Origin: Haloferax elongans ATCC BAA-1513
Lineage (GTDB): Archaea > Halobacteriota > Halobacteria > Halobacteriales > Haloferacaceae
Length of the DNA: 64,000 nucleotides
Direction: 5' to 3'
NCBI RefSeq assembly: GCF_000336755.1
Contig: NZ_AOLK01000022.1
Coordinates: forward strand, 108,277 to 172,276
Both the position numbers and the translations under genes were made by a program. Below are positions 15,314 to 18,829 of the stretch, in pieces. Positions within the stretch are counted from its first letter, which is position 1, and the number at the start of each line of letters is the position of its first letter. The notes under the pieces were generated by a model. The model had not been told where the DNA came from. It made no database searches and was given only the letters and a program-made list of their open reading frames with translations.

Positions 15314-15502
15314 TTACGCGGCCTGACCGCCCTTCTTGCGGGTGATGTAGCCCGCGATGCGGTTTCGAACGCTCTTCGATTCGACGGTGGTCAGTTGGTC
15401 GACGCTGTCCTTGTTGGTCTCGAAGTCCGTGTTGAACGCCTGCGGGTAGCGCTCCAGCAGGATGTTACCCAACTGCTTGACGTATTTGGGCTTGATTGCC
15501 AT
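15314..15502 (-). CDS. rps17e: 30S ribosomal protein S17e
   Basis: A complete archaeal/eukaryotic-type ribosomal protein of the small subunit, 62 residues. The N terminus MAIKPKYVKQLGN and the core AFNTDFETNKDSVDQL and SVRNRIAGYITRKK are diagnostic. It lies 24 nt downstream of the DUF447 gene of the cofD string. It also has its own TATA-like box (15527-15533 read on the minus strand, about 28 nt upstream of the ATG), so it can be transcribed alone as a leaderless mRNA. Confidence 0.97.
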   Translation of the reverse strand: MAIKPKYVKQLGNILLERYPQAFNTDFETNKDSVDQLTTVESKSVRNRIAGYITRKKGGQAA

Positions 15503-15526: not shown

Positions 15527-16192
15527 CTAAAACGATTCGTTCCGTCTTTCCGCGGCCAACTTGCGCCACCCGGTGTGTTCATCGATGCGTTCGAACGCCT
15601 CGCGCTCGGTCTGACCGCCGCACGCCTCGACGGTCTCTTCGAAGTACGCGAGTCGAGAGAGCAGTTCGTCGGTGTCGAACGCGGGCACGTCGAGTCGGGA
15701 GGCGGCGACCGTCGCGTCGACCACGGCTCCGAACGCCCGGTTGATGGTGAACGGGCGAGTCGCTTCGACTGCCGCCTCCGTGGGTCGAAGCTTCCATTTC
15801 TCCCAGTCGGTTCCGCCGTCGTCACCCGAATCGACCATCTCTACCTCGACTTCGGCCCACGCGTCCGCCGAGTCGAGGACGGGTGTCTCTTCCTCCCAGA
15901 TTGTCATCGCGGCGTCCACGAAGTCACGCGGGTCGGTGACGAACTGGACGACGCCGCCTTCCTGCCGGTGGAAGTTGCGACGGGTTCGGGTGTTTCCCCA
16001 CGTGGTTGCGGTGACAACGTCGTCGTTTGTGTCGGGCGCGTGAAGCCCGAGTGCCGCGAAGTTCCACAGTCCGTTCGGTCCCAGCGTCGCGACGACCGAT
16101 TCGGTGACGCCGCGAAGTTCGACCGGCCACTCGACGGTCCCGTCGGCCTCGCTGTCGTCGCCGTCGCCGCCAGCATCACCAGTGCGGGTCAC
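15527..16192 (-). CDS. DUF447 family protein (flavin-reductase-like fold)
   Basis: A 221-residue protein of the archaeal DUF447 family, whose known fold resembles the FMN-binding split barrel. Recognisable segments are TLGPNGLWNFAALGLHAP, WGNTRTRRNFHRQEGGVVQFVTDP and the C-terminal helical part. The GTG at 16192 overlaps the stop of the CitG-like gene by GTGA, so translation is coupled and the long upstream open frame is not used. Its biochemical role is unknown. The overlap with the CitG-like gene, and of that with the DUS-like and cofD genes, implies a joint function, possibly in flavin or deazaflavin chemistry. Confidence 0.85.
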   Translation of the reverse strand: MTRTGDAGGDGDDSEADGTVEWPVELRGVTESVVATLGPNGLWNFAALGLHAPDTNDDVVTATTWGNTRTRRNFHRQEGGVVQFVTDPRDFVDAAMTIWEEETPVLDSADAWAEVEVEMVDSGDDGGTDWEKWKLRPTEAAVEATRPFTINRAFGAVVDATVAASRLDVPAFDTDELLSRLAYFEETVEACGGQTEREAFERIDEHTGWRKLAAERRNESF

Positions 16193-17043
16193 AGTGGCAC
16201 CCCCCGTTCCAGCGCGACGAACGTCGCCGCACAGACAATATCGGCAGTCGTCCCGGGGTTGATTCCCTCGGCGACGAACTCCTCGGCCAGCGTCTCGGCC
16301 TCGTCGAGGTCGGAGACGGACGCCGCGCGGTCCATCACGTCGCGGGCGACATCCTCGCCGTGATTCGTCACGACGAGCGTGTCTGGCTCCTCGGTGAGAA
16401 GGTCGATAAACGCCCGCGCCACGCGGTCGGTAACTGGGCCCTCGTCGTTGAGGATGGACTCGGCCGCGCGGAACGTTCGGGCGAAGCCGCCGGTCCACTC
16501 CCGCGCGTTCGCATCTCGCTCGGCACTGAGTTCCATGATGTCGGAGAGGGTCAGTCCCTCCGCTCGGAGAGCGGATTCGGCCTCCGAGCCACGCCGAACG
16601 TCGAGGTCCGAGGCGTCTCCCGGTGGGTCGCCCACCGCGACGTCGACGTGCTCGAAGGCTCGGTAGAACGATACCGCATCGTCCACGGTCGTCGCTTCCG
16701 CGGCGCGAGTCGCCCCCTCCGGCGACAAGTCGCCTGCGACCGCGGCCTTCACGAGCGGGACGAGAAGCAGGAGACAGCCGAACTGCGTGTTGCCGCCGCC
16801 TTGTTTGCTCATCCCGGCGACTGCGGTCTCGAACGCTTCTCCGACCGGTGCACCGTCTTCGGCCAGTCGAAGCCCCGCCGCCGAGCCGACAGCCCCGGTC
16901 AGAAAGTGCTCGAAGCAGAGGCCCGAGAGGTCGCGTCGGCGGTCGACGTTCCCGGGTTTTGGCGTCCCGGCGACTTCGAGGAGGAGTGCGAGTTCGGCGT
17001 GTCGGGCAGGTTCAAATCCGCGCTCCGAAACTGGGTTCGACAT
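16189..17043 (-). CDS. Triphosphoribosyl-dephospho-CoA synthase-like (CitG/MdcB family) protein
   Basis: A 284-residue all-helical enzyme of the CitG family (COG1767). The conserved N-terminal LEVAGTPKPGNVDRRRDLSGLCFEHFL and the glycine/Asn-rich SKQGGGNTQFGCLLLL are present. Bacterial CitG joins dephospho-CoA and ATP to make the citrate lyase prosthetic group. No citrate lyase genes are in the window, so a different nucleotide or phosphoribosyl transfer is likely in archaea. ATG at 17043 overlaps the upstream stop (ATGA). The sandwich between a DUS-like barrel and DUF447 suggests a shared pathway. Confidence 0.82.
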   Translation of the reverse strand: MSNPVSERGFEPARHAELALLLEVAGTPKPGNVDRRRDLSGLCFEHFLTGAVGSAAGLRLAEDGAPVGEAFETAVAGMSKQGGGNTQFGCLLLLVPLVKAAVAGDLSPEGATRAAEATTVDDAVSFYRAFEHVDVAVGDPPGDASDLDVRRGSEAESALRAEGLTLSDIMELSAERDANAREWTGGFARTFRAAESILNDEGPVTDRVARAFIDLLTEEPDTLVVTNHGEDVARDVMDRAASVSDLDEAETLAEEFVAEGINPGTTADIVCAATFVALERGVPL

Positions 17044-17834
17044 CAGACGGTCGCCTCCTGCTCGTCGTCCGAATCCGCACGGCTGGCCTGCTCCGCGAAC
17101 CACTCGTCGGTCGCGGCGCGCACGCGCTGGAGCACTTCCGGGTTGTCACTCGGCCGCCCGACGCTCACGGCGTCGGCCCCGTAGTCGAGATACTCACGAA
17201 CCGTCTCGCGGTCGCGGACGCCGTTGTTGGCGATGACGAACAGGTCGGGTGCGGCCGCGACGACATCGGCGACGACCGCCTCGGAGTCCATCGCATCGAC
17301 GTGTATCCAGTTCGCGTCGGCGTCTGCGAGAGCCGCGGCGAGGTCCGAGAGGTCGACGCCCTCGACTTCCGTGCGAACCTTCACGCCCACTTCTGCGCCC
17401 GCTGCTCGCGCCGTTTCGACGTACTCCACGAGTCTGTCGGTGCCGCGGAGGAGCGCCTCTCCGCACCCGACTGCACAGAGTTCGTCTTGGCGGCAGTGGG
17501 CGTTGATTTCGAGGCCTGCACCGTGGTCGGCGCAGACTGACGCTGCGTCTCCAATCGGGTCGACTGTCGTCGCCCGGACGTTGACCGCGGCGAAGATATC
17601 CGGGCCGTCTGCGGCGTCCAATTCGGCCAGCTGTTCGTCGATGAACTCTGTCGGGTCGTCGGTGATGAACTCCGAGCGGTCGCGTGCGACGAGTTCTTCC
17701 GCAGCTTCCTGTGCAGCCTCGTCGATAGCGACGCCGCCGAGGAACGCCGCGCCGACGTACGGGGCGGCAGCACGCGCCCAGTCGGCGTCAGATTCGCCGC
17801 TGAGGCTCGCGACCGCGACGCGAGGGGCGAACAT
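17043..17834 (-). CDS. DUS-like TIM-barrel flavoprotein (tRNA-dihydrouridine synthase homologue)
   Basis: A 263-residue TIM-barrel protein related to dihydrouridine synthases. The catalytic-Cys region INAHCRQDELCAVGCGEALL lines up with the INxxCP...G.aLL motif of Dus enzymes, GVKVRTE with the KIR strand, and VIANNGVRDRET...GADAVSVGR with the C-terminal FMN phosphate loop. It is shorter than most Dus proteins and lacks the C-terminal tRNA-binding helical domain. It may therefore act on a small molecule rather than tRNA. ATG at 17834 shares one base with the cofD stop (TGATG); a GTG one codon earlier is an alternative. Confidence 0.78.
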   Translation of the reverse strand: MFAPRVAVASLSGESDADWARAAAPYVGAAFLGGVAIDEAAQEAAEELVARDRSEFITDDPTEFIDEQLAELDAADGPDIFAAVNVRATTVDPIGDAASVCADHGAGLEINAHCRQDELCAVGCGEALLRGTDRLVEYVETARAAGAEVGVKVRTEVEGVDLSDLAAALADADANWIHVDAMDSEAVVADVVAAAPDLFVIANNGVRDRETVREYLDYGADAVSVGRPSDNPEVLQRVRAATDEWFAEQASRADSDDEQEATV

Positions 17835-18829
17835 CACGACACCTCCGCGAGCGCGTCGGCGACCGCACGGACGACGCGAGCGGCGTCCTCTGGCCCGTCG
17901 ATTCGCGTGTCGGTTTTGACGATTGGCCTGTCGAGATCGGTCCCGTCCTCGTCGTCGAGAACGAACGCGTCCGCGAAGGGGTACGCCTCGGCGACGCCCG
18001 CTGTCGAGGGTTCGTAGCCGGTTCCTTCCATGAGGTCGGCTGCTGGTCCCGAAAAGACGGTATCCTCGACGAACGGTGAGACGGCGACGACCGGCGTCTC
18101 GGCGAGCGCGTCGGCGAAGTCGTCGAGGGCCAGCATCGGGCCGATACTCGTGACCGGGTTCGAGGGGCCGACGACCACGGGGTCCGAGAGCGCGTCGGCA
18201 ACCTCGGGTGTGATTGTCGCCTCGTCGGCACCGCGGAACTCTACGTCCTGAACCTCGGGTTCGGCGCGGTGGTGAACCCAGTACTCCTGAAAGTGCATGA
18301 CGCCCGATTCCTCGGTGTGGATGAGGCTCGCTACTGGGTCGTCGCTCATGGGCAGGAGCGACACGTCAAGGTCGAAGGCGTCCGCGAGCGTCTGTGTGAC
18401 CTCAGTCAGCGAGTTTCCTTCGTCGAGGAGCGAGGTTCGTGTGATGTGGACCGCGCGGTCGCGGTCGCCGATTTCCATGAACTCTGCGACGCCGGAGAAG
18501 CGTCGCCAACGGGCGATATCGCGGCCAGCGGTCTGGGCCTCGGGAGAGAGGTATCGCGGGCCGGATTCGAGGCCCGCCGCGTCGGCGAGGCGGTGGAGTT
18601 CGTCGTCCGTCTCGGTGGTGTCGCCCGCGATGCCCCACCAACGGTCGGTGTCGAGGACGCCGCCACCGGAAAAGAGGACGGTGTCGAGGTCGGGACAGAC
18701 GAGGTGGCCACCGAGTTCGACGTCGTCGCCGGTGTTTGCGACGACTGTCGTCTCGGCGGGGTCGAACACCTCGGCGGCCCCATCGAGGAGTTTGGGGGTG
18801 CCCGTGCCCCCGGCGAGGAACGTTACCAT
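17834..18829 (-). CDS. cofD: 2-phospho-L-lactate transferase (coenzyme F420 biosynthesis)
   Basis: CofD (331 residues) joins the activated phospholactate or phosphoenolpyruvyl guanylyl donor to 7,8-didemethyl-8-hydroxy-5-deazariboflavin, giving F420-0. The N terminus [17 protein letters not shown] is the nucleotide-binding signature. Other family blocks are [22 protein letters not shown] and [17 protein letters not shown]. It is the first gene of a tightly packed string on the minus strand. The downstream genes overlap it or each other, so they probably share its regulation and perhaps its pathway. Confidence 0.95.

Follow-up and report, generated by a model that had tools for sequence, protein, structure and literature searches.

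The CitG-like protein CitGL and the DUF447 protein, both encoded in a four-gene string of Haloferax elongans, probably build a methanopterin-type one-carbon carrier besides folate, together with the product of an mptG gene located elsewhere in the genome, with cofD, accompanied by dusL, on the coenzyme F420 side. The string lies in a stretch of 64,000 nucleotides (hereafter, the window) from the 3.95 Mb genome of strain ATCC BAA-1513 (contig NZ_AOLK01000022.1, positions 108,277 to 172,276), where its minus-strand genes occupy positions 18829–15527 in the order cofD, dusL, citGL and DUF447. An earlier note on this DNA had described successive overlaps of 1–4 bases, and these were confirmed: cofD and dusL overlap by 1 base (TGATG), as do dusL and citGL (TGATG), and citGL and DUF447 overlap by 4 bases (GTGA). 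Overlapping start and stop codons do not, however, show the fixed stoichiometry that the note had read from them. Its general theme of cofactor biosynthesis is supported, and the one-carbon (C1)-carrier-like molecule that we favour was among the several products that it offered.

Of 122 near-complete haloarchaeal genomes, all but three encode CitG. The exceptions are G008 and G060, which belong to one genus, and G119, which belongs to another. MptG, the enzyme of the committed step of methanopterin synthesis, is missing only from the same three and from G210, the assembly of which also lacks the cyclohydrolase Mch. In our sample of the phylum, DUF447 is likewise absent from these three near-complete genomes (hereafter, the loser genomes). 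In all of them cofD and dusL are still found side by side, and in G008 and G060 rpS17e comes directly after dusL, such that the CitG–DUF447 pair is cleanly missing. Because an operon in another haloarchaeon (G253) joins mer with the lost genes, loss of mer was predicted before it was tested, and the prediction held: Mer, an F420-dependent methylene-carrier reductase, had zero matches in G008 and G060 and a paralogue-level match alone (1e-38) in G119, whereas almost every other genome gave a match at 1e-77 or better. The string is thus made of two modules, of which cofD and dusL stay where CitG and DUF447 are lost with mptG and mer, rather than four genes serving one shared pathway as the earlier note had proposed. 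The probability that all three genomes without CitG would be among the four without MptG, out of 122, is approximately 1.4e-5 under the assumption of independent genomes, which these are not. Two incomplete metagenome-assembled genomes (MAGs) of family f35, G157 and G168, have neither CitG nor a credible MptG, and also give no full match to Mer. MetE follows a related pattern, with at least two matches in each of the 25 non-loser haloarchaea tested, none in G119, and one divergent copy each in G008, G060, G157 and G168. The presence of CitG and DUF447 tracks that of mptG in the control genomes as well, where all three occur in the same four archaea and the only other control with CitG is E. 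coli.

Linkage to mptG and to one-carbon enzymes, as expected of genes for carrier biosynthesis, was found twice in G253 and also in G155, G166 and Halobellus limi. G253 carries the order mer-citG-DUF447-mptG beside a divergent metE pair in two copies, on contigs C2 and C8 (L044 and L045). A plasmid of Halobellus limi carries, according to its annotation, a divergent npdG, then mer, DUF447 and an mptG family protein, followed by two methyltransferase genes, a 5-methyltetrahydropteroyltriglutamate–homocysteine methyltransferase and a methionine synthase, which correspond to metE-metE. The MAG G155 has mer-DUF447-mptG-metE-metE, G166 has mer-DUF447-mptG, and in G018 no more than 3 kb separates mptG from cofE-mer. 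In H. elongans itself, an open reading frame that reads as a putative cofE (6195–7052 of L058) directly precedes mer, and a metE pair is found on contig C21. The Mer copies of G253 and G018 score 386 and 436 bits against NF002619 (cut-off 276), and do not reach the stricter TIGR03555. One copy of the G253 module is on a contig of 52 kb, and the module with its metE genes may move between replicons.

The arrangement of the string is old and is conserved far beyond chance. Across 148 genomes of the phylum Halobacteriota, DUF447 was found in 140, CitG in 141 and MptG in 144; among genomes that have both genes, CitG and DUF447 are same-strand neighbours in 20 of 21 from haloarchaea and in 98 of 115 from other Halobacteriota. 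The survey of gene neighbourhoods proposed in the earlier note therefore shows a cluster that extends well beyond this genome. The DUS-like gene adjoins CitG in 18 of 20 haloarchaea and 53 of 54 other Halobacteriota, from which it could be argued that dusL is the true partner of CitG and DUF447, carrying out a flavin-dependent step in the same carrier pathway and kept in the loser genomes by inertia only. We consider this unlikely, as dusL is intact beside cofD in all three loser genomes, where the other genes were lost in two separate events, and its AHCRQ motif, invariant across 11 relatives, is kept there as well. An insertion of three genes between dusL and CitG divides the string of Natrinema thermotolerans into the same two modules. 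The position of dusL ties it to CitG, and its survival in the loser genomes ties it to cofD.

A comparable string, encoding a methanogenesis marker 9 protein, CitG and DUF447 in the same order and on the same strand, is present in many methanogen genomes, although its DUS-like protein has a TIGR03277 domain that the window protein lacks, and none of the loci read showed cofD ahead of it. A further link comes from methylotrophic bacteria. A search with a fae query sequence gave 80 loci, mostly from Methylobacterium and other Alphaproteobacteria, in which, within the fetched flank, a CitG-like protein was found in 80, MptG in 74 and DUF447 in 33; the loci are closely related and so do not amount to 80 independent cases. 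In Methylorubrum aminovorans, mch, an MptN-like ATP-grasp gene, CitG and fae follow one another, and the other strand carries a dihydropteroate-synthase-like protein (TIGR00284) and then DUF447. The methylotroph island has been described as mch-orf5-orf7-fae (PMC3615186); judging from gene order, CitG, which lies between orf5 and fae, would be orf7. This tetrahydromethanopterin island thus holds a CitG-like gene, DUF447 and mptG, the genes that are linked in haloarchaea, such that the pathway, which the earlier note had thought possibly undescribed, is not wholly so. The island serves formaldehyde oxidation, whereas the linked haloarchaeal genes are mer, npdG, cofE and metE. The same comparison bears on the idea that CitGL and DUF447 alter the F420 derived from CofD, for example by ribosylation, to suit Mer. 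Mer does use F420, and both haloarchaea and one methanogenic relative, G020, have the pair next to cofD, but cofD is kept in genomes that have lost CitG and DUF447, and methylotrophs, which have been described as being without archaeal donors such as F420 (PMC6193120), have both genes in their tetrahydromethanopterin island. We regard F420 modification as very improbable, and a methanopterin-type carrier as the likely product.

CitGL (citGL, 16189–17043, minus strand) is a member of the CitG superfamily, scoring 205 bits against PF01874 in a profile search (gathering cut-off 27), and alignment shows that it has KPG, N-T--G and PG--AD motifs in common with E. coli CitG. CitG uses ATP as donor of an alpha-linked ribosyl group, which it attaches to a hydroxyl of dephospho-coenzyme A with release of adenine, and methanopterin bears an alpha-ribosyl phosphate on its deoxyribitol. 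Family membership and the shared motifs would fit a canonical CitG/MdcB, a triphosphoribosyl-dephospho-coenzyme A synthase making the prosthetic group of an enzyme of the citrate lyase or malonate decarboxylase type, but CitGL scores only 16–20 bits against the CitG/MdcB equivalog models, whose cut-offs are 272–282, and a CitD-type acyl carrier protein (PF06857) was found in none of 59 haloarchaea, H. elongans included, with a positive E. coli control. The earlier note was therefore right that no acceptor for the known product of CitG is to be seen, and on these two grounds the canonical role was rejected as extremely improbable. CitGL also differs from CitG/MdcB in belonging to a lineage that accompanies archaeal and methylotroph one-carbon genes. 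With the family motifs kept, the score far below the equivalog cut-offs and no acceptor protein, our best guess, which we hold about evenly against its alternatives, is that CitGL is a ribosyltransferase acting on the carrier, a proposal consistent with the operon links and the co-loss. In a CitG tree, haloarchaea form one group (85/86), but the long branches leading to the methylotrophs and E. coli are unplaced.

The DUF447 gene (15527–16192, minus strand, GTG start) encodes a protein of the FMN split-barrel type that reaches the Pfam cut-offs of both PF04289 (72 bits) and PF20766 (60 bits). Its AlphaFold model (predicted local distance difference test score, pLDDT, 77.5) best matches 2iml, an Archaeoglobus DUF447 protein with bound flavin mononucleotide (FMN), at a Z of 19.3. 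The solved relatives 2iml, 2nr4 and 2ptf, from Archaeoglobus, Methanosarcina and Methanobacterium, are all FMN-bound, and together with 3b5m they share the fold of the window protein (Z 11 to 19); no reaction is assigned to any of these four in title or molecule name. Conversion of a ribofuranosyl ring to deoxyribitol needs a reduction, and since the DUF447 protein fits an FMN-bound fold and shares operons with mer and mptG, we tentatively put it forward as a candidate for this FMN-dependent step. The fourth structure, 3b5m, comes from the planctomycete Rhodopirellula baltica; a published list of bacteria that have tetrahydromethanopterin genes includes the Planctomycetes (PMC5020050). In the literature collection searched, we found nothing relevant that links DUF447, COG1767 or COG2457 to methanopterin.

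From the gene linkage, co-loss and family membership that we observed, we infer a methanopterin-like product made and used as follows. MptG would convert p-aminobenzoate and phosphoribosyl pyrophosphate to beta-ribofuranosylaminobenzene phosphate; once this is joined to the pterin, the DUF447 protein would, as an FMN protein, carry out a reduction, most likely one that opens the ribofuranosyl ring to give deoxyribitol, to which CitGL would then add an alpha-ribosyl group, as CitG does to dephospho-coenzyme A. With F420 made by the Cof enzymes and F420H2 supplied by NpdG, Mer would reduce the methylene carrier to its methyl form, and the MetE pair would hand the methyl group to homocysteine to give methionine. 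A path from NpdG and F420H2 through Mer and the methyl carrier to MetE and methionine is the natural reading of the linked genes, and methanogens derive the methyl group of methionine from methyl-tetrahydromethanopterin (PMC7005905). We lean towards a model in which two carriers work side by side, folate for purines and thymidylate and the methanopterin-type carrier only for the F420-driven NpdG–Mer–MetE branch, a remnant of a methanogenic ancestor, such that CitGL and DUF447 would be two unassigned enzymes of methanopterin synthesis in organisms that make methanopterin. Methanosarcina barkeri has been described with both kinds of carrier (PMC3261824).

Several points weigh against this proposal. 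Folate has been reported in haloarchaea (White 1988, as relayed in PMC8305020) and methanopterin has not; a review of Haloferax annotation states that haloarchaea use tetrahydrofolate and have no methanopterin-specific enzymes, takes folate to be the carrier on which their Mch and, probably, their Mer act, and considers HVO_2628 probably not to be MptG (PMC8305020). The MptG of H. elongans (contig C21) passes the family cut-off (TIGR00144, 163 bits; cut-off 113.5) but fails the strict equivalog (NF040726, 176 bits; cut-off 328), as is the case for haloarchaeal MptG in general. The haloarchaeal protein shares the motifs G-G-G--L, H-G-GSGTQ, GRG--SG-G-A and SS-GP with the beta-ribofuranosylaminobenzene 5'-phosphate synthase AF_2089, but is only about 30% identical to it, and published annotators doubt its activity (PMC8305020). 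The losses in complete genomes amount to about two independent events. No full Mer match is listed for G152, which is 81% complete, and only a partial one for G176, and MAGs of family f31 lack Mch while encoding MptG and CitG. Finally, f33 MAGs keep mer-DUF447-mptG, but CitG was not found there, such that CitG may be dispensable, as would fit a late, dispensable decoration by this enzyme.

One alternative is that folate is the only carrier, which MptG, CitGL and DUF447 would decorate or tune to give a modified folate, with Mer reducing methylene-tetrahydrofolate with F420H2. In addition to the published assignments, it is favoured by the retention of Mch in all three loser genomes, which are without MptG, CitG and DUF447, and this shows that Mch, at least, can use another carrier; for the same reason, a dependence of Mch on the new carrier was rejected. 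However, the known reaction of MptG commits p-aminobenzoate to a ribosyl arylamine rather than to folate, and Mer vanishes with MptG, CitG and DUF447 and shares their operons, neither of which a folate-dependent Mer would require. We therefore think a folate-only pathway improbable. The present data fit the published folate view for Mch and conflict with it for Mer, and the reported folates leave room for a second carrier in haloarchaea. If the linkage described here is right, the Haloferax annotation guide (PMC8305020) is wrong on the use of folate by Mer, and methanopterin synthesis could be tested in an aerobic archaeon that is amenable to genetics. In 2011, an estimated seven proteins of the methanopterin pathway were listed as unknown in methanogens (PMC3087415); CitGL and DUF447 are two named candidates for this pathway, each with a proposed step and each tied to it in both archaea and methylotrophic bacteria.

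A replacement for Mer was also considered. Weak matches to methylenetetrahydrofolate reductase (MTHFR, PF02219) occur in G008, G060, G157 and G168, but also in G109, G150 and G253, and there are none in G119, such that a clean replacement is only suggestive. A distant MTHFR-like protein is found at L150:4503-5333 (G060; TIGR00676, 57 bits), L152:4314-5147 (G168) and L154:4710-5558 (G253), is thus present in genomes lacking Mer as well as in a few that have it, and could possibly be a folate-type replacement of Mer. Three f31 MAGs (G153, G164 and G173) have MptG, CitG and Mer and lack Mch, the reverse of the loser genomes.

At the other end of the string, CofD (17834–18829, minus strand), the 2-phospho-L-lactate transferase of F420 synthesis, is a full equivalog (TIGR01819, 380 bits, cut-off 257; PF01933, 149.6 bits in a profile search). 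DusL (17043–17834, minus strand, ATG at 17834; 264 residues) matches PF01207 Dus with 34 bits over profile positions 62–237 of 311 alone, and because the match stops there, the C-terminal transfer RNA-binding part is missing, which bears out the earlier description of a DUS-like barrel without this domain. The best specific model is that of the MJ0144 family (TIGR00736, 124 bits), below its cut-off of 218.7, and the DusB model gives 20 bits (cut-off 293), so that DusL is neither a full-length Dus protein nor reaches an equivalog cut-off. Three methanogenic relatives (L035:4305-5447, L036:4877-6082 and L037:4759-5889) carry TIGR03277 ('methanogenesis marker 9'), which is cysteine-rich in them, at the C-terminus (152–174 bits), and this 'methanogenesis marker' protein thus has a haloarchaeal counterpart without that domain. 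A single-sequence structure model of DusL was poor (pLDDT 50.9) and was not used.

Directly downstream of DUF447 is rpS17e (15314–15502, minus strand), a small ribosomal protein gene identified by direct reading of the sequence, with matches in two of the loser genomes. It is not thought to belong to the proposed pathway. In N. thermotolerans, an annotated 30S ribosomal protein S17e sits at the same place.

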